NCBI GenBank assembly: GCA_020073145.1
Contig: JAIQFS010000025.1
Location: 1-64,000, forward strand
Direction of reading: 5' to 3'
Length of the DNA: 64,000 nt
DNA from: Terriglobia bacterium
GTDB lineage: Bacteria; Acidobacteriota; Terriglobia; Bryobacterales; Bryobacteraceae
Shown: positions 1 to 13,431 of the stretch, piece after piece
How positions within the stretch are numbered: the stretch's first letter is position 1
How the letters are laid out: each line of letters opens with the position of its first letter
Notes under the pieces: model-generated
The model's database searches: none
Told to the model about the DNA's origin: nothing
Seen by the model: the letters and a program-made list of their open reading frames with translations, nothing else
Made by a program: the position numbers and the translations under genes

Positions 1-322
1 GGAGTAAACGTAGCGCCACAAAGCGATTCCAATGCTCCCTGAAGATGCGATTTAATCCATCGGGCGGTCCACAACGCACGGCGATAAGTCCGCGAGACCT
101 GGTCTCGTAGCCGGGCCGCCCCGCAACGCCACAGTTCTCGACCCACCGCGCAGCCGACGTGTCTTTCAATAACGCGCGCAGCGCCTCATCCCTACTTTTG
201 CCTTTTGCCTTTTGCCCTTTGCCTTTTGATTTGTTCCCCTAGCCGACGTGTCTCCAAAACCACGCGCCGCTCACTTTTGCCCTTTTTTTCCCCTCTCTAT
301 GTGACAATTGGTCGTAGAAATC
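1..322. other. Upstream gap, no recognisable gene
   Basis: No reading frame here has a recognisable product. The plus frames hit stops early, and the longest edge-open plus frame ends near position 110 after about 35 codons. The only clear structure is the repeat listed separately. The sequence before the ileS start has a pyrimidine-rich tract (about 276-299) and no convincing Shine-Dalgarno, so the promoter of ileS could not be placed. Confidence 0.4.
152..282. repeat. Imperfect direct duplication with TTTTGCC short tandem repeats
   Basis: The 13-mer AGCCGACGTGTCT occurs at 152-164 and again at 241-253. Each copy is followed by a similar block that ends in TTTTGCC. Between the copies, 195-228 is a short tandem array of TTTTGCC-like heptamers. 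This looks like a slippage-prone intergenic microsatellite. No function is visible. Confidence 0.6.
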
Positions 323-3300
323 ATGAATAGACTGGAATCCGTGCCACCGGTGTTCGAAGCGCCGGTGCTGGAAGAGGAGATTCTTGCCTTCTGGCGCGAG
401 TCGCAGGCCTTTGAAAAACTGCGGAAACTGAGGGAAGCGCAGCCGCTCTTTCGCTTTGTCGACGGCCCCATTACCGCCAACAATCCCATGGGCGTCCACC
501 ACGCCTGGGGACGCGCGCTCAAAGACGTTTTCCTGCGCTACAAGGCCATGACCGGCCACTCGGCCAAGTACCAAAACGGCTTCGATTGCCAGGGATTGTG
601 GGTGGAAGTGGAGGTCGAGCGCTCCATCGGCTCCAACGGCAAACCCGACATCGAGCGCTTTGGCCTCGATAATTTCTCCCGCCAGTGCCGCGCGCGGGTC
701 GAGAAGTACGCCAAGGTCATCTCCGAGCAGTCCGCCCGCCTCGGCATGTGGATGGACTGGGACCACTCCTACTTCACCCACGACGATTCCAACATCACCG
801 GCATCTGGGCCTTCTTGAAGGAATGCCAGAAACGCGGCTGGCTCTACCAGAAGGGCCTGCCGATGCCCTGGTGCTGGCGCTGCGGCACCAGCCTCTCCGA
901 GCACGAGATGGCGGGCTCGCACAAAGACCTGGAGCATCTCTCGGTCTATGTCCTGGCCTCGCTGAAATCGAACCCCTCCCGCCGCCTGCTCCTCTGGACC
1001 ACCACACCGTGGACCCTCGCCGCCAACGTCGCCGCGGCCGTCAACCCGGAGCTCACCTATTTCGAAATCAGCTCCCACCACTGGAACCACACCCTCATCG
1101 TCGGCAAAGAGGCGATGGGCAAGCTCAAGGAATTTCATCCCAAAGTGGTTCGCGAATTTCCCGGCGCGGAATTGGTCGGCGAGCAGTACGAGCCCTTCTT
1201 TCCGGAACTGCCGCAGCAGAGCGACATCGAACACCGCGTGGTCCCCTGGAAAGACGTGGACGCAGTCGAAGGTTCCGGCATCGTGCACATCGCCCCGGGA
1301 TGCGGCCGCGAGGATCACGAGCTCGGTCTGGAGCTCGGCCTGCCCGCCATCTCTCCCGTGGATGGCAACGGCCACTATCTCCCCGAGTACGGCTGGCTGG
1401 CCAATAAGCACGCCGGCGATGTGGCCCAAGACATCTCGTATGCCCTCAAGGAATCGGGCAAGCTCCTCAAGGCCGAGATGTACACCCACAGCTACCCGGT
1501 CTGCTGGCGCTGCAAAACCGAGCTGATCTTCCGCCTGGTCGACGAGTGGTTCATCAGTTGTTTCGAGATCCGGCCGCTCATGCTCGCGGCCGCCCGCACC
1601 GTCACCTGGATGCCCGAATATGTCGGCAAGTCCATGGAGGACTGGCTCACCAACATGGGCGACTGGTGCATCTCCCGCAAGCGCTATTGGGGTCTGCCCT
1701 TACCGTTCTACCTGTGCCCGGACTGCAACGAGCGCACTGTGGTCGGTTCGCGCGAAGAGCTGCGCTCTTTGGCGGTGGACCCGGCCGTCGTGGATGGCCT
1801 GCCCGAGCTGCACCGCCCGTGGATCGACGAAGTCAAAATCCGCTGCCCCAAATGTTCCGCGGAACTCTCGCGCGTGGTGGAGGTGGGCGATTGCTGGCTG
1901 GACGCCGGGATCGTTCCCTTCAGCACGCTCGGCTACTTCGACAACCGCGCCGCGTGGGAACGCGCTTATCCCGCCCAGTGGGTCAGCGAGATGCGCGAGC
2001 AGGTCCGCTTGTGGTTCTACTCCATGCTCTTCATGAGCGTGACCCTGCAAGGCCGGTCTCCTTACGAAAAGGTGCTCTCGTACGAATCCGTGGTCAGCGA
2101 AGAAGGCACGCGCTTTTCCAAGACCGGATTCATGATCCAGTTCGATGACGCCGTCACCAAGGTGGGCGCCGACCCCATGCGCTACCTGTTCTGCGCGCGC
2201 CCGGTTTCGGTCAATATGCGGTTCAGCTACAAGCTGGCCGAGATGGCCGCGCGCAAGATCGCCGATTTGTGGAACATCTACACCTTCCTGGTGAACTACG
2301 CCATTATCGACCAACCGGATCTTTCGAAGCCGGTGGCGCCCGAAACGCTGCAGGTCACGGACCGCTGGCTCCTGGCCCGCACCGCGGTCATGCTGGAGGG
2401 CGTTCAGAAGAGCTACGAATCCTACGATACCCCGGCCGTCATCCGCGACGTGGAAGCCTACCTGGACGACGTTTCCAACTGGTATGTGCGGGTGAGTCGC
2501 CGCCGCTTCTGGCGCAGCGGGCACGACGACGACAAGCGCGCCGCCTACAGCACGCTGCTGGCGGCCTTGCGCTCCACCACTCTCGCGCTCGCGCCCATCA
2601 TTCCCTTCGTGTGCGAGCGGATCTGGCAGAACGCCGTGCGCGGCCTCGATCCCACGGCCGCCGAATCGGTGCATCATGCGGACTGGCCGGCCGCGCCGGC
2701 CGCGTGGCGCGACGAAGCCTTGCTGCGGCGCACCGAAGCCGTGCGCAACGTGATCCGTCTGGGACTGAAGGTGCGGGCCCAGGCTTCCACGCGCGTCCGC
2801 CAGCCGCTGCAGGCGGCGCACGTTGTTTTCTCCGGTGAGAAGCGGAAGGCCGTGGAAGAACAGAGCGCCCTGATTCAGGGCGAGCTCAACGTCAAACAAG
2901 TCCAGTTCGCCGGCGATGCGAAGGCATTCTTCCAGACCGAGCTCAAGGTGGATTGGAAAGCAGCCAATGCCCATTTTCGCCGCGACTCCGCCAGCTTCCG
3001 CGCCGCATTCGACGCGCTCGACCAGGCCTCGCGAGAAAGGCTGGCCGCGCAGGCCGCGGCTGGAGGCGAGGTGCAAGTCTCCGGTTTCGATCAGCCGGCC
3101 CCGGCCGGCTTATTTAAGATGGAGCGCGCGCCCGACCCGCGCTGGGGCGTGGCCGAAGAAGGCGATGTGCTAGTCGCGCTCGATCTGGCGTTATCCGAAC
3201 CGCTCCAGCGCGAAGGCATGGTGCGCGACCTGGTCCGCAATCTCCAGGTTCTGCGCAAAGATACCGGCCTGTCCGTGAGCCAGCGCATTGAGTTGGGGCT

Positions 3301-3466
3301 GGTCACCGAAAGCAAGCCGATGCAAGATGCCATCTCCGAGCATCGCGACTACATCATGGATGAGTTGCTGGCGGTGAAACTCGAGTTGGCTTCCCTGGAG
3401 GGCGCGAGAGCGCACCTGGAGGTGACGGTGGAAGGGCATAGCGTGCGTGCTACCATGCGGTGGTAG
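323..3466 (+). CDS. ileS: Isoleucyl-tRNA synthetase with altered HIGH motif
   Basis: Cytoplasmic class I enzyme that charges tRNA-Ile with isoleucine. The ATG at 323 is preferred because the family N-terminus aligns from there; a TTG at 308 in the same frame would add five residues. Product about 1,047 aa. The first signature lies in NPMGVHHAWGR, so the usual HxGH is GVHH (residues 57-60). The second signature, normally KMSKS, reads RFSKT (597-601). Cysteine pairs suitable for zinc are seen in CWRCG, CWRCKTE, CPDC and CPKC. The C-terminal anticodon-binding region is present and the length is that of the long IleRS2-type enzymes. In known IleRS2 proteins a GxHH swap goes with very strong mupirocin resistance; that phenotype is inferred here, not shown. 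It stands alone and is followed 41 bases later by cytochrome c. Confidence 0.96.
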   Translation: MNRLESVPPVFEAPVLEEEILAFWRESQAFEKLRKLREAQPLFRFVDGPITANNPMGVHHAWGRALKDVFLRYKAMTGHSAKYQNGFDCQGLWVEVEVERSIGSNGKPDIERFGLDNFSRQCRARVEKYAKVISEQSARLGMWMDWDHSYFTHDDSNITGIWAFLKECQKRGWLYQKGLPMPWCWRCGTSLSEHEMAGSHKDLEHLSVYVLASLKSNPSRRLLLWTTTPWTLAANVAAAVNPELTYFEISSHHWNHTLIVGKEAMGKLKEFHPKVVREFPGAELVGEQYEPFFPELPQQSDIEHRVVPWKDVDAVEGSGIVHIAPGCGREDHELGLELGLPAISPVDGNGHYLPEYGWLANKHAGDVAQDISYALKESGKLLKAEMYTHSYPVCWRCKTELIFRLVDEWFISCFEIRPLMLAAARTVTWMPEYVGKSMEDWLTNMGDWCISRKRYWGLPLPFYLCPDCNERTVVGSREELRSLAVDPAVVDGLPELHRPWIDEVKIRCPKCSAELSRVVEVGDCWLDAGIVPFSTLGYFDNRAAWERAYPAQWVSEMREQVRLWFYSMLFMSVTLQGRSPYEKVLSYESVVSEEGTRFSKTGFMIQFDDAVTKVGADPMRYLFCARPVSVNMRFSYKLAEMAARKIADLWNIYTFLVNYAIIDQPDLSKPVAPETLQVTDRWLLARTAVMLEGVQKSYESYDTPAVIRDVEAYLDDVSNWYVRVSRRRFWRSGHDDDKRAAYSTLLAALRSTTLALAPIIPFVCERIWQNAVRGLDPTAAESVHHADWPAAPAAWRDEALLRRTEAVRNVIRLGLKVRAQASTRVRQPLQAAHVVFSGEKRKAVEEQSALIQGELNVKQVQFAGDAKAFFQTELKVDWKAANAHFRRDSASFRAAFDALDQASRERLAAQAAAGGEVQVSGFDQPAPAGLFKMERAPDPRWGVAEEGDVLVALDLALSEPLQREGMVRDLVRNLQVLRKDTGLSVSQRIELGLVTESKPMQDAISEHRDYIMDELLAVKLELASLEGARAHLEVTVEGHSVRATMRW

Positions 3467-3507
3467 AGAGTATTGTCGATATTAATATTCTTTAAGGAGC
3501 CTGTCGT

Positions 3508-3825
3508 ATGAAGACGATCGTCATCGGAACGCTTTCATTGATTGTGACCGTGGGCCTGGCCTACGGAAGTGCGGCGGAAGGCAAAGGGCTGTATGGCACC
3601 AAGTGCGCGGCCTGCCATGGCGCCAATGGCGAGGGCAAAGCGGCCATCGGCAAGGCCTTCGGGGTCACCATGGCGCCGCTGGGCTCCAAGGAAGTGCAGA
3701 GTATGTCCGACGCCGACATCAAGAAGGTGATCCTCTCCGGCAAAGGCAAAATGAAACCCGTGGCCGGCGTCACCGAGAAGCAGGCCGACGACATCGCCGC
3801 CTTCGTCAAGACGCTCAAAGAATAG
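3508..3825 (+). CDS. Small secreted mono-heme cytochrome c
   Basis: Periplasmic electron carrier of 105 aa. An N-terminal signal peptide (about residues 1-22, ending near YGSAAEG) precedes the heme-binding CAACH motif. The sequence KMKPV in the C-terminal third offers the likely axial Met ligand. This is the class I cytochrome c (cytochrome c6/cbb3-like) layout. The ATG at 3508 has AAGGAG about 8-9 bases upstream. A perfect hairpin just after the gene acts as a terminator, so it appears to be monocistronic. Its redox partner cannot be named from the context. Confidence 0.9.
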   Translation: MKTIVIGTLSLIVTVGLAYGSAAEGKGLYGTKCAACHGANGEGKAAIGKAFGVTMAPLGSKEVQSMSDADIKKVILSGKGKMKPVAGVTEKQADDIAAFVKTLKE

Positions 3826-3837
3826 CGGTTCCTCGTG

Positions 3838-3865
3838 GGGCAGGCGATGCGCCTGCCCGTTCCTT
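3838..3865 (+). terminator. Intrinsic terminator after cytochrome c
   Basis: Perfect 9-bp stem GGGCAGGCG / CGCCTGCCC (3838-3846 and 3850-3858) with a 3-base loop, followed by a T-rich tract. It separates the cytochrome gene from the next gene. Confidence 0.75.
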
Positions 3866-3908
3866 ATTTCCTTGAACTTTCGCCCGTCGTCTTTCGTACC
3901 CTAACTCC

Positions 3909-4781
3909 ATGAGGATCATTCTGCTCACTCTGTTGGGTGCGGGCATAGTTCTGGCGCAGACTCCCGCGGACCTGAAATTCGAAGTGGCCTCCATCCATCC
4001 TTCCCAACCCACGCCGGACCGGGTGGATCTCGGGTACCATATCGATGGCGCGCAAGTCCGGATTGTTTCCGTGCCGATGCGCGATTACATCGCGCGTGCC
4101 TATCGCCTGAAGCCGTATCAGGTCACCGGGCCGGACTGGATCACCTCCGAGCGGTTCGACCTGAACGCCAAGATTCCGGAGGGTAGCAGCCCGGACCACA
4201 TCGCGGAGATGCTGCAATCGCTGCTCGCGGAGCGGTTTCAGATAAAGGTGCATCACGACCAGAAAGAACTGCCGGTGTACGCGTTGATCGTGGGCAAGCC
4301 GCCGCTGAAGATACAGGAGTCCAAAGCAGATCCGCCTGCCCCGGATGCTCCCGCCCCGGCGAAAGGCGCCGTGAACGTGGCCGCCCAAGGCAGTGCCGCC
4401 GGCGTCTCGGTGAATCTCGGCAACGGCTCCTACTACACCTTCGCGAATAACAAGCTCGAGGTCCACAAGTTCAGCATGGACATGCTGGCGCGGCAGCTCG
4501 AGCGCTACACGGACCGTCCGATTGTCGACATCACGGGTCTGACCGGCGTCTACGATCTCTCGGTCACGGTGACCCAGGAGGATGCACAGGTCATGATGAT
4601 CCGCGCCGCCGTGAATGCCGGCATGACGTTGGCGCCGCAAGTCATCCAGTACATGGACAACGGTTCGATTGCTTCCTTGCTCGACGGCTTCCAGCAACTC
4701 GGTTTGAAGCTGGACACCCGCAAGATGCCCATGGATCTGCTGGTGGTGGATCGGTTGTCGAAGACGCCGTCAGAGAACTGA
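3909..4781 (+). CDS. TIGR03435 family soil-associated secreted protein
   Basis: Protein of 290 aa with a signal peptide (residues 1-17, cleavage near VLAQ). It continues with the family opening 'KFEVASIHP' and the conserved middle 'YQVTGPDWITSERFDL', followed by a segment about lowering to a small set and 'LLAERFQIKVHHDQKELPVYAL'. It ends in the family signature 'DRPIVDITGLTGVYDL' and a final 'PMDLLVVDRL'. The family is expanded in Acidobacteria and has no established biochemical role; it is probably exported. A second, divergent member is at 53.4-54.4 kb on the other strand. Poorly conserved alanine/proline-rich linker at about residues 140-160. Confidence 0.88.
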   Translation: MRIILLTLLGAGIVLAQTPADLKFEVASIHPSQPTPDRVDLGYHIDGAQVRIVSVPMRDYIARAYRLKPYQVTGPDWITSERFDLNAKIPEGSSPDHIAEMLQSLLAERFQIKVHHDQKELPVYALIVGKPPLKIQESKADPPAPDAPAPAKGAVNVAAQGSAAGVSVNLGNGSYYTFANNKLEVHKFSMDMLARQLERYTDRPIVDITGLTGVYDLSVTVTQEDAQVMMIRAAVNAGMTLAPQVIQYMDNGSIASLLDGFQQLGLKLDTRKMPMDLLVVDRLSKTPSEN

Positions 4782-4844
4782 GAGGCCGCGCACCGGTCTG
4801 CCTACGACAGTTCCGCGATCGAAGGGTTCTGTCTCGCCAGGGTT

Positions 4845-5846
4845 CTAGTGGTCGCGCTCCGTCACTAGTTCGGTGACAGTCAGCAAAGCGCGCTGATAGG
4901 GCGAGTCGGGAAAGCTGCTGATGATGCGGCGGGCTGTGTCGGTAAAGGCCTGGGCCCGGTCTTTCACGCGGCCGATGCCCCGGTATTTTTCCAAAAACGC
5001 CAGGATCCGCGAAAACGGAACTTCGTCGTAATCGCGCCGGCGCAGGATGGTCTCCACCAGCTGCCGCTCTTCGCCCGAGGCTCGTTCCAGCGCGTAGACC
5101 ACCGGCAGCGTGACTTTGCCTTCACGAAGATCGCCGCCCACTGGTTTGCCCAGCGTCTTTTCGCGGGCCGTGAAATCCAGAACGTCATCCACCAACTGGA
5201 ATGCCATCCCCAGGTTCCAGGCATATTCGGCGAGCTGTTCCTGCGCGTGCGTGTCCGCGCCCCCGGCCAACGCGCCGAGCTTGGCGCACACCGAAAACAG
5301 GCAGGCTGTCTTGCGGTCCACCAGTTCCATGCAGTCGGCTTCGGTGACGTCGATGCGGCCGATCCGTTCCAGTTGCAGCAGCTCGCCATCGACCATCATT
5401 TGCGTCAAGCCGATCAGCAGATCGAGAATTTGAAAATTGCGCTCCCGCAGGGCAATCTGGAAGGCCTGCATGTACAGCCAGTCGCCCGCCAGGACGCACG
5501 TGTGGTTGCCCCACGTGACGTTGGTCGAAGGGCGGCCGCGGCGGGTCTCGGCGGCGTCGATCACGTCGTCATGCACCAGAGTGGCCGCGTGAATCATCTC
5601 AACCACCGCGCCCAGTTGAATGGCGCACGGCCCGGCGCTGCCGGCCAGCTTGGCGGAGAGCAGGAGCAGGGAAGGCCGCAGGCGCTTGCCGCCGGCCGAT
5701 TGCAGGTATTGCCCGATCGCGGTCACGGCATCGACCGAAGCCACTGATTCCAGCGTGATCTTCTTTTCCACCTGATCCATCTCGTCCTGGATCAAGTCGA
5801 AGATCTCGCGCGCCGTGAGGGCCTGCCCCAGCTTTCCTAAACTCAT
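4845..5846 (-). CDS. Trans-polyprenyl diphosphate synthase (IspB-like)
   Basis: Condenses isopentenyl diphosphate onto an allylic primer to make the long isoprenoid chain of quinones. The 333-aa length is standard for octa/hepta/nonaprenyl synthases. Both aspartate-rich motifs are seen: HDDVID (D93, D94, D97) and LVDDVLD (D220, D221, D224). A GGKRLRP segment (about 52-58) is the usual diphosphate-binding element. The exact chain length cannot be read from the sequence. It is the last gene of the minus-strand operon headed by uppS, so the group combines undecaprenyl and quinone-chain synthesis. Confidence 0.92.
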   Translation of the reverse strand: MSLGKLGQALTAREIFDLIQDEMDQVEKKITLESVASVDAVTAIGQYLQSAGGKRLRPSLLLLSAKLAGSAGPCAIQLGAVVEMIHAATLVHDDVIDAAETRRGRPSTNVTWGNHTCVLAGDWLYMQAFQIALRERNFQILDLLIGLTQMMVDGELLQLERIGRIDVTEADCMELVDRKTACLFSVCAKLGALAGGADTHAQEQLAEYAWNLGMAFQLVDDVLDFTAREKTLGKPVGGDLREGKVTLPVVYALERASGEERQLVETILRRRDYDEVPFSRILAFLEKYRGIGRVKDRAQAFTDTARRIISSFPDSPYQRALLTVTELVTERDH

Positions 5847-5860
5847 GGAAGTTAACCAGT

Positions 5861-6646
5861 TTACCCGTTATCGGCCTCATCCTGCAAACACAAGCGCCGG
5901 AAGTTGCGGGTCGTTTGCTCCGCGATGCGCTCCGGCGGCACGCCGCGAACCTCGGCCAGGCGCCGCACGGTCTCCACCAGGAAGGCTGGTTCATTGCGTT
6001 TTCCGCGCATCGGGACCGGCGCCAGATACGGACAATCCGTCTCCACCAGCAGGCGCTCCTCAGGCGTGATGCGCGCGGCCTGCCGGACTTCCTCGGCCTT
6101 CGGGAAGGTCAGCACGCCGCCAAAGGCCAGGTGAAATCCGAGGTCGAGCGCCTGACCCGCCTGCTGCTCGTTCCCCGTGAAGCAGTGCATGACGCCGCCG
6201 CCGTTCCAGCGCGCTCTGAGAATCGCCAGGGTATCGTCCCAGGCCTCGCGTGTGTGGATCACCACCGGCCGGCCAGCTTCCGCCGCGATGGTGAGCTGCC
6301 GTTCGAAGACCGCGCGCTGCACCTCCCGGGGCGAGAAGTCGTAGTGGTAGTCGAGGCCGATCTCGCCGATGGCTTTCACTCTCGGGCGGCGCGCCAGCTC
6401 CTGCAGCCGGACGAACGTATCCTCCGACGCCTTGGAGGCGTCGTGCGGATGCACCCCCACCGTGGCGACGATGAACGGATACTGATCCGCCAGGCGGAGC
6501 GCGGCCTCCAGATCCGGCGGGCCCGAGCCGGTTCCGATGGCCATCAGGGTCCCGACTCCGGCGGCGCGGGCGCGCTCGATGGCGGCCTCGCGGTCTTCGT
6601 CAAACTGGCGGTCGTCCAGGTGGCAGTGGGAATCGACCAGCCTCAC
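5861..6646 (-). CDS. tatD: TatD family metal-dependent hydrolase/DNase
   Basis: Predicted TIM-barrel metallohydrolase of 261 aa. Metal-binding features are visible: the DSHCHLDD opening, GVHPHDA, GEIGLDYHY with the bridging Glu, VIHTREA, HCFTG and the late ETDCPYLAP. TatD enzymes act as 3'-5' exonucleases in DNA repair, and possibly in tRNA quality control, which fits its position next to metG. The GTG at 6646 is chosen because it overlaps the metG stop (GTGA) and gives the family N-terminus at once. This metG-tatD adjacency is common in bacteria. Confidence 0.92.
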   Translation of the reverse strand: MRLVDSHCHLDDRQFDEDREAAIERARAAGVGTLMAIGTGSGPPDLEAALRLADQYPFIVATVGVHPHDASKASEDTFVRLQELARRPRVKAIGEIGLDYHYDFSPREVQRAVFERQLTIAAEAGRPVVIHTREAWDDTLAILRARWNGGGVMHCFTGNEQQAGQALDLGFHLAFGGVLTFPKAEEVRQAARITPEERLLVETDCPYLAPVPMRGKRNEPAFLVETVRRLAEVRGVPPERIAEQTTRNFRRLCLQDEADNG

Positions 6647-8565
6647 TTGAGGCGCGCTCCTACCGGGATATCTTCCAGGAACGCAGCCAGGACCGGCTTG
6701 CCGCCTTCTACGGAGGCCGCGACGATCATCCCGTTGGAGATGAGGCCGCGCATTTTTCGCGGTTGCAGGTTGGCCACGATCACCACCTTGCGGTTGAGAA
6801 GCTGTTCCGGCTTGTACGCCTCGGCGATGCCCGCGACGATGGTTCGCGGCTCGGGCTCGCCGATGTCCACCTTCAAATGCAGCAGCTTGTCCGCGCCCTT
6901 GACCGGCTCGGCGGAAAGCACCAGGCCGACCCGGAGATCCACCTTGACGAAGTCGTCGATGGCAATTTTGGGCGACTCCGGCGCCGCTTCCGCCGCCGGC
7001 GCTTCGGTCTTGCCGAGAATCGCGTTCTGTTCGGCGGTGACGACCACCTCCAGCTCCCGCATCTTGTCGATCGCCGGTTTCAACTCGAGGCGCGGAAAGA
7101 CCGCGGACACCTCGCCGATCTTTTGGCCGTGCGCCAGTTGCCCCCACGACAGGTTGGCGAAACGCACCGATTCGATGGGTTCCTTTATGCCGAGTTGCGC
7201 CCAGATCTTCGGCGTCGACTGCGGCATTACGGGGTAGAGCAGGGCAGTAGCGATGCGTAGCGCTTCGGCGGCCGTGTAGAGCGTCACATCGAGCTGCGAT
7301 TGAGCCTCGGGCTGCTTGGCCAGCTTCCACGGAGCCTGTCTCACGATGTAACTGTCCACTCGTGAGATCAGAAACCAAATCCGCTCCAGGCCCTTAGAAA
7401 ATTCAAAAGTGTCGAAGTATATTTTAACGTTGTGAATAATGTTGTCGGCCAGGGCGCCGATCTCCGAATTCGAACCCTCGGGGATGGTGCCGCCGCGATA
7501 CTGATGGATCATCGCCAGGGTCCGGCTGGCGAGGTTGCCGAGTCCGTTGGCGAGGTCGGAGTTGTATCGGTTGACCAGCGCGTCGTAGCTGAAGTTGCCG
7601 TCCTGCCCGAAGACCACCTCGCGGAGCAGAAAATAACGCAAGGCATCGGCGCCCATCACCTGGCGGATGGGCTCGGCGCGGACCATGTTCCCCCGGGACT
7701 TGCTGATCTTATCGTTCTCGATGAGCAGCCAGCCGTGGGCGAAGATGCGCTTGGGCAGTTCCAGGCCCGCGGCCCACAGGAATGCCGGCCAGTAGATGGC
7801 GTGGAAGCGGACAATCTCTTTGCCGATTAGATGCAGATCGGCCGGCCACAAGCCTTTGCCCTCCACCGCGCTCATGTACGTGGTCAGGGCGTCGAACCAT
7901 ACGTAGAAGACGTGCGGCTCCTCTCCGACTACCGGGATGCCCCATTTGATGTTGGTGCGGGTGATGGACAGATCGGTCAATCCGCCCTTGACGAACGCGA
8001 TCGCTTCATTGCGGCGGGAGTCGGGTTGGATGAACTCGGGATGTTCCTCGTAGAGCTTCAGCAGCTTCTCTTGAAATGCCGAAAGCTTGAAGAAGAAATT
8101 CTCCTCGGTGACGGTCTCGGTGGGGCGGCCGCAATCGGGACAGGGGTCGCCTGGCTTGGCCTCGTTGACGTAGAGATTGTCGTAGATGCAGTATTGGCCG
8201 CTATACGAGGCTTTGTAGATGTAGCCGTTCTTGCGGCAGCGGTCGAACAGGTCCTGCACGACGCGCGCATGTTGCGGGCTGGTGGTGCGCTGAAAGTAGT
8301 CGATATCGAGGTCGAGCAGCTTCCACTGCTTCTCGAAAACGGCGGCGATGACGTCGCAGTGCTCCTTGGGTGTCTTCCCATTCCGCTGGGCGGCCCGCTC
8401 CACGTTGACGCCATGCTCGTCGGAGCCGGTGGTCAACACCACGGGCTCGTAGCCCTGCATGCGCTTGAAGCGCTTGATCAGGTCGGTCACGATGGTGGTG
8501 TACGCATGCCCGATATGCGGCGCGGCATTCACGTAGTAGATGGGAGTAGTGAGGTAGTATTTCAT
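6643..8565 (-). CDS. metG: Methionyl-tRNA synthetase with C-terminal tRNA-binding domain
   Basis: Charges initiator and elongator tRNA-Met. Class I signatures HIGH (17-20) and KISKS (286-290) are intact. The zinc knuckle includes C126 and CPDC (142-145), a compact single-knob form. Residues from about 530 to 640 form the OB-fold dimerisation/tRNA-binding domain (VDLRVGLVL onward, ending NGMIVAA). Length 640 aa is typical of this domain arrangement. The ATG overlaps the larC stop (ATGA) and the stop overlaps the tatD start, so the three are translationally coupled. Confidence 0.96.
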   Translation of the reverse strand: MKYYLTTPIYYVNAAPHIGHAYTTIVTDLIKRFKRMQGYEPVVLTTGSDEHGVNVERAAQRNGKTPKEHCDVIAAVFEKQWKLLDLDIDYFQRTTSPQHARVVQDLFDRCRKNGYIYKASYSGQYCIYDNLYVNEAKPGDPCPDCGRPTETVTEENFFFKLSAFQEKLLKLYEEHPEFIQPDSRRNEAIAFVKGGLTDLSITRTNIKWGIPVVGEEPHVFYVWFDALTTYMSAVEGKGLWPADLHLIGKEIVRFHAIYWPAFLWAAGLELPKRIFAHGWLLIENDKISKSRGNMVRAEPIRQVMGADALRYFLLREVVFGQDGNFSYDALVNRYNSDLANGLGNLASRTLAMIHQYRGGTIPEGSNSEIGALADNIIHNVKIYFDTFEFSKGLERIWFLISRVDSYIVRQAPWKLAKQPEAQSQLDVTLYTAAEALRIATALLYPVMPQSTPKIWAQLGIKEPIESVRFANLSWGQLAHGQKIGEVSAVFPRLELKPAIDKMRELEVVVTAEQNAILGKTEAPAAEAAPESPKIAIDDFVKVDLRVGLVLSAEPVKGADKLLHLKVDIGEPEPRTIVAGIAEAYKPEQLLNRKVVIVANLQPRKMRGLISNGMIVAASVEGGKPVLAAFLEDIPVGARLK

Positions 8566-9722
8566 CTCGATCGGTTCAGATACGCGGCGTTGGCTTCGGC
8601 GATGACGTGCTTGAGGGCGACTCCGGATTCGAGCGCGAGTTTCCGGCAGTCCTCGTACTCGGGGGCGTAGGAGCCTTCGCTCCCCACCTTGATGCGCACG
8701 GTTCCATAACGCGTGGCGACTTCGGTGCGGGTGCGCGCCTGCACGCGGCGTTCGGCGGAATAGATGCGCAAGCCTAGCGTGGAGGTCTCGGTAAAGATCA
8801 GCTGGGCGATCGACTCCCGGTCTTCCGGCCGCACGATGGCGCTCAGCAGGCTGCCGGGGCGGCCTTTTTTCATGAAGAGCGGTTGCACGGTGACATCGAG
8901 CGCGCCCGCTTCCAGCAGCCGTTCGGCGGCGTAGGCCAGCACTTGCGGGTTGAGATCGTCGATGTTGGCCTCGATCACGGAGACCGAGAGCGATTCCATC
9001 GCGCCCGTGGGTTCGCCGAGAATCACGCGCAGGACGTTGGCGTGCTCCGTAAAATCGTGATCGCCGGCGCCGTAACCGGTGCGCGCGATCTTCATCGGCG
9101 GCAGCACGCCAAAGCGGCCGGCCAAGGTGGCGACGACCGCCGCGCCGGTGGGCGTGGTGAGTTCGACCGCCGGACCGCGCGCGTAGACGGGAGCGTTCTC
9201 GAGCAGGCGGGCCGTAGCGGGCGCCGGGACGGGCAGCACGCCGTGTTCGGTGTGCACGATGCCGCTGCCGACGTTGAGCGGCGAGCAGACGATGGCGTCC
9301 ACGTGGAGCAGGTCAAACGCCACGCAGGCGCCGACGATGTCGGCGATGGAATCGGCCGCTCCGACTTCATGAAAGTGCACTTTTTCGAGGGGAACCTGAT
9401 GCACTTCGGCCTCGGCCTCGCCCAGTTTGCGAAACACGGCCGAGGCATCGCGACGAGCTCGGCTGGAAAGATCGGCCTGGGCGATCATCTCGAGGATGTG
9501 GGAAAGGTGCCGGTGCTTCTTGGTTTCTTCGACCGCGACGTGATACTTGGTCGCGGCGATGCCGCGGCGCTTCACCTTTTCGAACGAGACCGTGGCTCCG
9601 GCATTCAGCGATGCGATAGCCGATACCAAGGCCTTCGGATCGGCGCCGGCATCGGCCAGCGCGCCCACCAGCATATCGCCGCTGATGCCGGAAAACGCAT
9701 CCAGATAACAGGTCAAGGCCAC
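8562..9722 (-). CDS. larC: LarC-like nickel insertion protein (pincer cofactor)
   Basis: Matches LarC, the CTP-dependent cyclometallase that inserts Ni into the pyridinium-bis(thiocarboxylic acid) mononucleotide cofactor of lactate racemase and relatives. Family hallmarks: YLDAFSGISGDM at the start, VHFHEVGAADSIADI, SGIVHTEHGVLPVPAPAT, TPTGAA, and EANIDDLNPQ before a C-terminal domain with MKKGRPG. About 386 aa. The GTG at 9722 starts the family N-terminus; no strong ribosome site precedes it and a TTG two codons later is possible. No larA, larB or larE is in the window. It sits oddly inside a lipid/isoprenoid and tRNA-charging operon and is coupled to metG by an ATGA overlap. Confidence 0.9.
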   Translation of the reverse strand: MALTCYLDAFSGISGDMLVGALADAGADPKALVSAIASLNAGATVSFEKVKRRGIAATKYHVAVEETKKHRHLSHILEMIAQADLSSRARRDASAVFRKLGEAEAEVHQVPLEKVHFHEVGAADSIADIVGACVAFDLLHVDAIVCSPLNVGSGIVHTEHGVLPVPAPATARLLENAPVYARGPAVELTTPTGAAVVATLAGRFGVLPPMKIARTGYGAGDHDFTEHANVLRVILGEPTGAMESLSVSVIEANIDDLNPQVLAYAAERLLEAGALDVTVQPLFMKKGRPGSLLSAIVRPEDRESIAQLIFTETSTLGLRIYSAERRVQARTRTEVATRYGTVRIKVGSEGSYAPEYEDCRKLALESGVALKHVIAEANAAYLNRSR

Positions 9723-9751
9723 GGTTTCTTCATTGTAGCGGGTGGAGCCGC

Positions 9752-10519
9752 TCAGCCCAGGTAGCGCACGTAGGCGTAGATCACCGGGAGGGCGAACAAG
9801 GTGCTGTCCACGCGGTCGAGCATGCCGCCGTGGCCGGGCAGCAAGGCGCCGCTGTCCTTGATGCCGGCGCCGCGCTTCATGGCGGATTCGGCCAGGTCGC
9901 CCAATTGGCCCGCGGCGTTGGCGGTCAAGGTGAGAGCCACGACCGGCACAATGCCGATACCGCTGACAAACCGCAGCAGGTACCCGCCGGCGATCAAAGC
10001 CGAGACGGCCAAGGACCCGATGGCTCCCTCCCACGTCTTCTTCGGGCTGATTCTTTCGGCGAGCTTATGCCGGCCGAAGGCGCGCCCCACATAGTAGGCG
10101 CCGATGTCTCCGGCCCAGTTCACCAGCAGCGCGAACATCAACCAATGCGGGCTGCGATCCCGCAGCGGGATGGCGCACTTCCAGGCGCCGAACACGTAGA
10201 GGATCCCCAGGACGCGGAGGGCCGCGCCCGGCAGAGAGTCGGCGAGGTTCTCGGCCCGCATCGCCAGCAGCAGCGCGGCCAAGGCAAACACGGTGACCAG
10301 CAGCCAAGGTTCGGGAATGGGAGCGAACAGCAGCAAGCCCGCGGCGTAACCCGCGGGACCGGGCGCTCCATAGCCGTAAGCGGCCGCGATGCCGTCATAT
10401 TCGCGGTAACAGAGGCACGCCACGGCCACCAGAACCGCGAGGAAGATCCAGAAATTCGCCCACAGCACCACGTAGACGACGATGGGAATCAGCGCAAGGG
10501 CGGTGGCAACCCGCTTCAT
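9752..10519 (-). CDS. cdsA: Phosphatidate cytidylyltransferase
   Basis: Integral membrane enzyme that makes CDP-diacylglycerol from phosphatidate and CTP, the entry step of phospholipid synthesis. Length 255 aa with six to eight hydrophobic segments across residues 5-190. The C-terminal signature is clear: GQLGDLAESAMKRGAGIKDSG followed by LLPGHGGMLDRVDS. The start overlaps the uppS stop by ATGA, the widespread uppS-cdsA coupling. The usual dxr/rseP neighbours are not here; larC follows. Confidence 0.95.
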   Translation of the reverse strand: MKRVATALALIPIVVYVVLWANFWIFLAVLVAVACLCYREYDGIAAAYGYGAPGPAGYAAGLLLFAPIPEPWLLVTVFALAALLLAMRAENLADSLPGAALRVLGILYVFGAWKCAIPLRDRSPHWLMFALLVNWAGDIGAYYVGRAFGRHKLAERISPKKTWEGAIGSLAVSALIAGGYLLRFVSGIGIVPVVALTLTANAAGQLGDLAESAMKRGAGIKDSGALLPGHGGMLDRVDSTLFALPVIYAYVRYLG

Positions 10520-11370
10520 GAGGGGCGGAGGACTTCAATCAGAGCTTCGTCACCGGCCTTCGGCAGCCGGCGCAGAGATTGCGGGGCGTCCGGCCCGCCA
10601 GTGAGCCCACCGTAGCGGCGTTCGCGCTTCTGGTATTCCAGAATGGCTTGCAGCAGATCGCGGCGCGTGAAATCGGGCCACAACGTCTCGGTGACATACA
10701 ACTCGGCGTAGGCGATCTGCCAGAGCAGGAAATTGCTGATGCGCATTTCGCCCGAGGTGCGGATCAACAGATCCGGGTCCGGACAGGTGGCGGTGTAGAG
10801 GTTGGAGGAGATCAACTCCTCATCCAGCTTGAGAGAGGCGATGCTGCCATCGAGGCGCGCCACTTCGAGAATGGAGTTGACGGCGTCGACGATTTCGGCG
10901 CGGCCGCCGTAGTTGATGGCCAGGTGGACCAGCAGCCCGCGGTTGGCGGCGGTGGCGTCCACCGCGGAATCCAGCTCGCGGCGGACCTGGGGCGGCAGCG
11001 CATCGAGGCGGCCGATGGCCTGCAGGCGGATGTCGTTCTTTTGCAGTTCGGGAAGTTCCTGGCGCAGGTAGTACCGCAGCAGACGCCAGAGGGTCTCCAC
11101 TTCGGCTCTGGGGCGCTTCCAGTTCTCCACTGAAAACGCGTAGAGGGTCAGCGCCTTAACGCCCAGGCGCGCGCACGTTTCCACGGTGCTGCGGACCGGG
11201 CCGACGCCTGCCTGGTGACCGGCGACGCGGGGCAGCCGGCGCTGGCGGGCCCACCGTCCGTTGCCATCCATGATGACCGCAATGTGGGCGGGCAAGCGTG
11301 CCGGATCGATGGCCTGGGCCAGATCCCAATCCTTATCGCCGGGCCCGAGGGAGTCCAGTAAGGCCTTCAT
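10516..11370 (-). CDS. uppS: Undecaprenyl diphosphate synthase
   Basis: Cis-prenyltransferase that makes the C55 carrier lipid for peptidoglycan and surface polysaccharide synthesis. Catalytic Asp is D35 in MDGNGRWA. Further motifs: GHQAG, TLYAFSxENWKRP, and DPDLLIRTSGEMRISNFLLWQ near the C-terminus. About 284 aa from the ATG at 11370; the open frame extends further upstream but that region does not look like the family. First gene of the six-gene minus-strand operon. No clear Shine-Dalgarno precedes the ATG. A TATA-rich stretch lies at 11378-11390. Confidence 0.95.
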   Translation of the reverse strand: MKALLDSLGPGDKDWDLAQAIDPARLPAHIAVIMDGNGRWARQRRLPRVAGHQAGVGPVRSTVETCARLGVKALTLYAFSVENWKRPRAEVETLWRLLRYYLRQELPELQKNDIRLQAIGRLDALPPQVRRELDSAVDATAANRGLLVHLAINYGGRAEIVDAVNSILEVARLDGSIASLKLDEELISSNLYTATCPDPDLLIRTSGEMRISNFLLWQIAYAELYVTETLWPDFTRRDLLQAILEYQKRERRYGGLTGGPDAPQSLRRLPKAGDEALIEVLRPS

Positions 11371-11446
11371 GAAGTAAACACATATAGTACAACACAGGCG
11401 CTCCGATGGTCGCACAACTGGAAGCGTAAAGAAGCGGCGGGGCTGG

Positions 11447-11797
11447 CTAGGCGAGCTCGGGTGTGGAAACTTCGAGACTCGAAGAATGCACGCGGAACTT
11501 GTGCGAGCTGATGCGAACAGCGGTCTCGCGGTTATCGCTCCAGACGACGAAACCGGTGGCCTGCAAATCGATGGGGCGGATGGCTTCTTGCTTGATGGGC
11601 CAGTCGATGCGGAGCTCCACATGGGAGCCAATGGGCATGGGCTGCCTGCTTTTGAAGGCGACTCCGTCCTTGCTCATGTCGCGCGTGATGCCGCTGCTCC
11701 AGCGGTGCTCGATGCCTTTTTCGGATTGCCGGTAACGAACCGAGAGGTGAACCTCAAACCGGAGGCTTCTCCGCCGTTCGTCCGCCGTTTTCGCCAT
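11447..11797 (-). CDS. PilZ domain protein (predicted c-di-GMP binding)
   Basis: Single-domain protein of about 116 aa. The N-terminal RRRSLRF supplies the arginine motif and TRDMSKDGVAF matches the DxSxxGxxF motif, the two elements that contact cyclic di-GMP in PilZ domains. Start chosen at the ATG at 11797 because GGGAGGAG lies 12-19 bases upstream and the domain begins there; an earlier in-frame start would add 27 residues of basic, unconserved sequence. Probably a stand-alone c-di-GMP adaptor. Divergent from cysS. Confidence 0.85.
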   Translation of the reverse strand: MAKTADERRRSLRFEVHLSVRYRQSEKGIEHRWSSGITRDMSKDGVAFKSRQPMPIGSHVELRIDWPIKQEAIRPIDLQATGFVVWSDNRETAVRISSHKFRVHSSSLEVSTPELA

Positions 11798-12027
11798 GTA
11801 GAAGTTTCTCCTCCCGCCCGTTTCGAGCTCATTCCGAAAAAAACGCGGACGCTGTGCCCGCCAGAGCTTGCAATTCAAAGGCCGTCATCACAAGTGCCGC
11901 GCGCGGTGTGCTCCGAGAGTACGAACCAGAACTTTTTACTCAGTGAGATCTTCACTCCATTACCATTCTGCCCGAGCCGAACGCAGGGCAAGCGTCGTCT
12001 GCTACGATGGAAAAAATCCCCTCAACT

Positions 12028-13431
12028 ATGGCATTGCGCTTTTATAACACGCTGTCACAGCAAGTGGAGACATTTTCTCCAGCTCGCGACAACATCGTCC
12101 GCATGTACACCTGCGGACCCACGGTGTACGACTACGCGCACATCGGCAACTTTCGGACTTTTACGTTTGTCGATCTTCTGCGCAGATGGCTGCGCACCAA
12201 CGGATTCGGTCTCGATCACGTCATGAACATCACGGATGTCGACGACAAGATTATCCGCAACGCGGTGGCGCAGCGCAAGTCCCTGGCGGAATATACCGCG
12301 GTGTACACGGAGGCATTCCGGAAAGATTGCGCCACGTTACGGCTGGAAGAACCGGAACGGCTGGTCCCGGCGACCGGCCACATTGACGACATGGTGGAAG
12401 CCATCGAGCGGTTGAGCGCCAGCCACCATACGTACTCGAGCGAAGGCTCGGTATATTACCGGATCTCGAGTTTTCCGGGCTACGGCAAGCTCTCGCACAA
12501 TGACTTCAGCGGCAACCTGGCGGGCGCGCGCGTAGACGTGGACGAATACGAGAAAGCCGACGCGCGGGATTTCGCGCTGTGGAAGGCGCCCAAGGAAGGC
12601 GAGCCGTTTTGGGAGACGGCGCTGGGGCCCGGGCGGCCGGGCTGGCACATCGAATGTTCGGTGATGGCGATCAAGTACCTCGGGGAAACCCTGGATATTC
12701 ATGCCGGGGGCATCGATCTGATTTTTCCCCACCACGAGAACGAAATCGCGCAGTCGGAGGCGCTCACCGGACAGCCGTTCGCGCGCTTCTGGCTGCACGC
12801 GGAATTCCTGATGGTGGAAGGCCAGAAGATGTCGAAGTCGTTGGGGAACTACTTTACCTTGCGCGACATCCTCGAACGGGGACATTCGCCCGAGGCCATC
12901 CGGTACCTGCTGGCCTCGGTGCCCTATCGCAAGTCGCTGAACTTTACTTTTGACGGATTGAAGTCGGCCAAGACCGCGATTGACCGTCTGCGGAACTTCA
13001 AGCTTCGGCTGGAAACCGATCGCTACCCCGAGGGACAGAGCGAAGAGCTGGCGGCGCGAACCGCGCAAGCCTGCAAAGGATTTACCGAGAGCCTCAACGA
13101 TGACCTGAACACGGCGGAGGCCCTGGGCGCGGTGTTCGAATACGTCCGCGACGCCAACAGCGCCATGGACGCAGGCACCTTCCGGGCCGGCAACGCGGCG
13201 GCGGCCTTGGAGCTTTTGGCGCTGTTCGATTCGGTGTTTGCCGTGTTGCAGCCGGCGGCGTCGCAGGGGACGTCGGATGCCGGGGTGGACGCGCTGGTGG
13301 CCGAGCGCACGGCCGCCAAGAAGGCGAAGAATTTTGCGCGCGCCGATGAGATCCGCGACCAGCTGCTGGCGCAAGGCATCATTCTGGAGGACACCAAGTC
13401 GGGGGTGCGTTGGAAAAGGAAATCGCCGTGA
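12028..13431 (+). CDS. cysS: Cysteinyl-tRNA synthetase
   Basis: Charges tRNA-Cys. From the ATG at 12028 the product is 467 aa and begins MALRFYNTL, as in the family; an in-frame ATG at 12007 would add seven residues, and neither has a strong ribosome site. Signatures: [15 protein letters not shown] (zinc Cys C29, HIGH-type HIGN 38-41), WHIECS (second zinc Cys), [11 protein letters not shown] and KMSKS (267-271). The stop overlaps the start of the next gene (GTGA), so cysteine charging is coupled to a sulfur amino-acid enzyme. Confidence 0.96.

Follow-up and report, generated by a model that had tools for sequence, protein, structure and literature searches.

The 64,000-nucleotide stretch of DNA analysed here (hereafter the window; positions 1 to 64,000 of contig JAIQFS010000025.1, assembly GCA_020073145.1, from a Terriglobia bacterium of the family Bryobacteraceae) begins with ileS2, a gene for a type-2 isoleucyl-tRNA synthetase (IleRS2) in which the HIGH signature of class I synthetases is replaced by GVHH. 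The gene occupies an open frame at 308-3466 of the forward strand, with its first ATG at 323, the Met of which is counted as residue 1, and a stop codon at 3464-3466, giving a product of 1047 amino acids. We compared its residues across three sets, comprising 87 proteins of the GVHH clade, 16 canonical IleRS2 and 12 type-1 enzymes (IleRS1). The roles given below for Pro49, Asp331, Trp525 and Trp564 are presumably those of the equivalent residues in Thermus IleRS. The gene and its features are:

323..3466, + strand: ileS2, isoleucyl-tRNA synthetase type 2, 1047 amino acids, intact; alternative TTG start at 308
467..469, + strand: Pro49, corresponding to the Pro that binds isoleucine in Thermus IleRS; Pro in 86/87 clade members and in all canonical IleRS2
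491..502, + strand: GVHH (residues 57-60; codons GGC GTC CAC CAC), swapped class I HIGH motif
578..601, + strand: GFDCQGLW (residues 86-93), replacing GWD(T/C)HGLP
1271..1315, + strand: editing-site stretch GSGIVHIAPGCGRED with invariant Asp331; Asp in all 87 + 16 + 12 sequences
1883..1909, + strand: VGDCWLDAG (residues 521-529), replacing xDxWFDSG; includes Trp525
2012..2014, + strand: Trp564, within RLWFY (canonical RGWFY)
2111..2125, + strand: RFSKT (residues 597-601), altered KMSKS motif with the fourth-position Lys retained
2360..2815, + strand: anticodon-binding domain PF08264
2870..3445, + strand: C-terminal DUF5915 domain PF19302

Both altered motifs align with their counterparts in solved IleRS2 structures, GVHH with HVGH/HIGH and RFSKT with KMSKS. 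A preliminary description of this DNA, made from the letters alone, had placed Gly-Val-His-His at 491-502 at the HIGH position and had read the second motif as RFSKT; the alignment and the TIGR00392 match bear out the coordinates and the reading of the first, and the second was found where it aligns with KMSKS. GVHH is no chance occurrence, being carried by all five other proteins of alignment A1. It is also present in the 76-78% identical proteins of two sister species (G258 and G261), and because these species share the motif it is not a sequencing error. Among the 87 relatives, the first position of the motif is Gly in 85 and Ala in 2 and the third is His in 87/87, a count that is itself biased because part of the set was gathered with the peptide MGVHHAW. 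The nearby class I synthetases in the window, methionyl-tRNA synthetase (MetRS; 6643-8565, - strand) and cysteinyl-tRNA synthetase (CysRS; 12007-13431, + strand), have ordinary HIGH/KMSKS-type motifs, so the alteration is confined to IleRS.

Its sequence, its C-terminal domain and its predicted fold all mark the enzyme as an IleRS2. The whole protein scores about 693-694 bits against the TIGR00392 ileS model (cut-off 621.4) and comprises a class I synthetase domain, an anticodon-binding domain and, at the C terminus, the DUF5915 domain (PF19302) of type-2 enzymes; with Gly at the first and His at the third position of its signature, it carries the G/AXHH form of IleRS2. In a tree of 98 proteins it groups with the type-2 enzymes, and the IleRS1 sequences are set apart by a long branch (support 100). 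An AlphaFold2 model (mean predicted local distance difference test score, pLDDT, 90.8) has as its best PDB matches the Priestia megaterium IleRS2 structures 8c8v, 8c9d, 8c8w (a GVHH mutant) and 8c8u (E-values 1e-91 to 1e-87), and IleRS1 structures score clearly below these both by sequence and by modelled fold. The comparison with IleRS1 and IleRS2 proposed in the preliminary description thus assigns the protein to IleRS2. In the 87-member clade comparison, the editing residue Asp331 is invariant and the isoleucine-pocket residues Pro49, Trp525 and Trp564 are retained. The more specific identity MupA was rejected (NF000257, 554 bits; cut-off 1900).

The window's own genome (G000; 6.3 Mb in 88 contigs, completeness 100%) contains no second ileS according to an ileS profile search of the whole genome, the same search finding ileS in 14/14 control genomes; the next matches to the model are partial and correspond to ValRS, LeuRS, MetRS and CysRS. 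The preliminary description had seen no other IleRS in the window, had suggested that this one may be the main enzyme of the cell and had proposed searching the genome for a second ileS; its observation extends to the whole genome, where this is the sole IleRS. Forty-five tRNA genes were found. Four further species of the genus were compared; each carries the orthologue (73-78% identity; two copies are truncated by contig ends) and none has an IleRS1 or other ileS. Within the genus, the ratio of nonsynonymous to synonymous substitution rates (dN/dS; Nei-Gojobori) is 0.12-0.15, an approximate value because dS is near saturation, and indicates purifying selection. Since the gene is the sole copy and is under purifying selection, its product is very probably the housekeeping IleRS of the cell.

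The signature swap has been described previously. Of 163 IleRS2 surveyed, 86 carry G/AXHH, a form seen in none of the IleRS1 (Brkic et al. 2023, PMC10485003). The ALHH IleRS2 of Deinococcus radiodurans has a mupirocin inhibition constant (Ki) of 6.6 mM, which drops 823-fold on reversion to HVGH, and introduction of GVHH into two canonical IleRS2 raised Ki by ~200- to 430-fold, while turnover number (kcat) or Michaelis constant (KM) worsened by no more than 10-fold; overall, Ki can rise by as much as about 1000-fold through the swap without loss of activity, and the natural ALHH enzyme shows no evident catalytic cost (PMC10485003). In the structure of the Priestia GVHH mutant, the third His takes over the role of the first, and mupirocin would clash with it; IleRS2 is also able to be the sole housekeeping gene (PMC10485003). 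The link made in the preliminary description between this swap and extreme mupirocin resistance is therefore an application of published work, and the GVHH variant, being widespread and already described, is less surprising than a lone report suggests and is not a new kind of system. By analogy with G/AXHH IleRS2, which are characterised by mupirocin Ki values from high micromolar to millimolar, the window enzyme is predicted to be resistant to mupirocin, and its sole-copy status, dN/dS and conserved pocket are indirect signs that it may activate isoleucine.

The swap is accompanied by further changes around the active site. Phe87, Gln90 and Trp93 (GFDxQGLW for GWDxHGLP) and Leu526 and Ala528 (WLDA for WFDS) occur in 86-87 of the 87 clade members, and nearly all canonical IleRS2 and IleRS1 compared have the canonical residues at these five positions; a second peptide, YQNGFDC, was also used to gather the set, so that positions 57, 59 and 87 are selection-biased, and positions 90, 93, 526 and 528 lie outside both peptides. 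In the KMSKS loop, most clade members read MHKS and the window's subclade reads FSKT; throughout the clade the first Lys has usually been lost, and the fourth-position Lys is present in 80/87 and replaced by Arg in 5/87. The block at 87/90/93/526/528 is not discussed in the portion of the text of PMC10485003 available to us, Fig. 2b of which aligns the KMSKS motif. It is possible, although we would put it clearly short of even, that the deep GXHH clade represents a concerted remodelling of the class I active site, in which the changes may compensate one another and the ATP-binding or transition-state chemistry may differ from that of the single-motif mutants studied. Such a remodelling would comprise the swapped HIGH, Trp-to-Phe, His-to-Gln, Pro-to-Trp, Phe-to-Leu and Ser-to-Ala changes and the frequent loss of the first KMSKS Lys, and the co-substituted residues are testable candidates for what enables a class I synthetase to tolerate GXHH.

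Two actinobacterial members (L128 and L154) have GVHT instead of GVHH and MHG(N/S) in the KMSKS loop, and the L154 genome has a second ileS ~0.7 kb away, suggesting a specialised copy. IleRS of the GVHH/AVHH clade also occur in archaeal bins (L104, L119 and L133; Heimdallarchaeota, Thermoplasmata and Brockarchaeota), possibly through binning errors.

To place the gene within its family, we sampled 61 genomes of Bryobacteraceae, one per genus. In most of them the best ileS match is an IleRS1; the window's genus has a GVHH enzyme, as do G244, G218 and G210, with G244 keeping IleRS1 alongside it, and G205 has a canonical IleRS2. Other GVHH enzymes in the phylum occur in G062, G008, G172, G244, G218 and G210. 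A scan of named genomes found at least 579 relatives, the best 80 of which were used. The closest outside the genus among the matches listed is that of the planctomycete Aquisphaera insulae (63% identity), likewise the single ileS of its genome, followed among the matches listed by Hydrogenedentota (55%) and Clostridia (about 50%); no plasmid-borne relative exceeds 60% identity, the best listed reaching about 33% and being mostly MupA and other IleRS2. In the 98-protein tree the genus joins Aquisphaera insulae (Shimodaira-Hasegawa-like approximate likelihood ratio test, SH-aLRT, 99) and then Hydrogenedentota (99), and the GVHH enzymes of G244 and G218 lie far from it. Forcing these into one clade with the genus is rejected (approximately unbiased test, p-AU, 3e-60; likelihood gap 722), in a test whose constrained group was picked after seeing the tree and whose model is simple. 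In G187, G202, G226 and G244, ileS1 adjoins lspA; in the window's genome and three others (G258, G259 and G261), lspA stands with lgt but without ileS1. These data indicate that IleRS1 was probably displaced through a horizontal transfer separate from another GVHH acquisition in the same family, and the simplest history is that ileS2 was gained elsewhere on the chromosome and ileS1 was then lost.

A sister contig (L075), labelled Terriglobia bacterium, subdivision 3 (Acidobacteriota), encodes a protein identical to that of G258. The other GVHH IleRS2 group of Acidobacteriota, comprising the enzymes of G244 and G218 (L039 and L040) as well as L016 and L019, has a ~46-residue insertion after LGYWxDWD and more insertions in the editing region, all absent from the window protein. 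On contig C43 of the window's genome (L168, 2013-6627), lspA-lgt follows genes judged by eye to be of carbon monoxide dehydrogenase type (large, medium and small subunits, CoxG-like), and the genes upstream of lspA vary between sister species.

We consider it likely (a probability of roughly 0.86) that this acidobacterium (Terriglobia, subdivision 3) relies on a housekeeping GXHH IleRS2 that was transferred in and displaced the native ileS1, with high target-level mupirocin resistance as the predicted consequence. The enzyme belongs to a deep GXHH clade of IleRS2, in which the third-position His may do the job of the usual first-position His in isoleucine activation, with Gly at the first position; this His should clash with mupirocin, so that intrinsic high resistance at the target is predicted. 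The ancestor of the genus would have gained ileS2 by horizontal transfer from a donor lineage whose present-day representatives are Aquisphaera (Isosphaeraceae, Planctomycetota) and Hydrogenedentota, and ileS2 would then have taken over from the native ileS1, which disappeared from its site beside lspA; the direction of transfer and the selective cause of the replacement are what we infer.

Several points weigh against this account. Aquisphaera could also be a recipient, and the donor lineage is thinly sampled. RFSKT differs from KMSKS, and since the KMSKS loop shapes mupirocin binding, the published size of the resistance is not transferable; catalysis and resistance are predicted from sequence for the window enzyme and its close kin alike. 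The assembly is still in draft form (88 contigs), with ileS2 starting 323 bp from the end of its contig. On another reading, the enzyme would be a paralogue that has degenerated or specialised, for instance a stress or self-resistance copy, and housekeeping would fall to another IleRS. Second copies do occur in G244, in Ktedonobacter and in one Micromonosporaceae genome (two ileS genes), but the lack of another ileS in the draft genome and the four sister species argues strongly against this reading, as do the strong purifying selection and the intact editing and isoleucine-pocket residues, and we give this explanation almost no weight.

Vertical inheritance of ileS2, with IleRS1 as the newcomer in the family, would fit the existence of other GVHH enzymes in the phylum; these are nevertheless placed elsewhere in the tree, with the single clade rejected as above, and both the prevalence of IleRS1 among the 61 genera and the shared ileS1-lspA arrangement make it very unlikely. 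A third alternative, which we rate somewhat below even, is that the swap is not mainly about mupirocin, and that the IleRS2 active site was rebuilt long ago, neutrally or for the sake of stability, with resistance as a by-product. The swap and F87, Q90, W93, L526 and A528 are fixed jointly in a clade whose members come from many phyla and from some archaeal bins, anaerobes and gut bacteria among them, and the D. radiodurans enzyme carries the swap without evident catalytic cost (PMC10485003); on the other hand, resistance is the only large effect measured for the swap (PMC10485003), and soil acidobacteria plausibly encounter IleRS inhibitors.

Compared with known systems, the window enzyme resembles the G/AXHH IleRS2 of D. 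radiodurans (ALHH) and Streptomyces griseus, which are likewise able to serve as housekeeping enzymes (PMC10485003), and its clade adds GFDxQGLW, WLDA and a changed KMSKS loop, in a residue comparison drawn from sequences other than those two. The Priestia megaterium IleRS2 (8c8u, 8c8v, 8c8w and 8c9d) is the nearest solved structure in fold, matching along the entire protein and its C-terminal domain too, but has a natural HVGH and KMSKS and about 33% identity. MupA, the plasmid ileS2 product of staphylococci, has the same IleRS2 architecture, whereas it is about 31% identical and plasmid-borne and the window enzyme is the only IleRS of its genome. The Aquisphaera insulae enzyme shares GVHH, GFDCQGLW, FSKT and the status of sole IleRS, and differs in its phylum and in having Met, not Arg, at the first KMSKS position. 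What our analysis adds is good support for a history of displacement, a block of active-site residues that vary together, and the usual loss of the first KMSKS Lys in the clade. The genus would be a clear natural example in which an essential enzyme of mupirocin-sensitive type has given way entirely to one whose signature motif is scrambled. Since the family includes genomes with the native IleRS1, one with both genes (G244) and others in which replacement is complete, it could be worked out in which order gain, coexistence and loss took place.

The neighbourhood of ileS2 is not conserved in the sister genome L075 and is partly shared with L060 (cytochrome c and polyprenyl synthase genes downstream). 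In the window, ileS2 and a small cytochrome c gene are followed at 3909-4781 by a gene for a secreted protein that, by eye, resembles the TIGR03435 family, typical of Acidobacteriota. Together with the MetRS (- strand) and CysRS (+ strand) genes, ileS2 (+ strand) makes three class I synthetase genes inside ~13 kb (323-13431).
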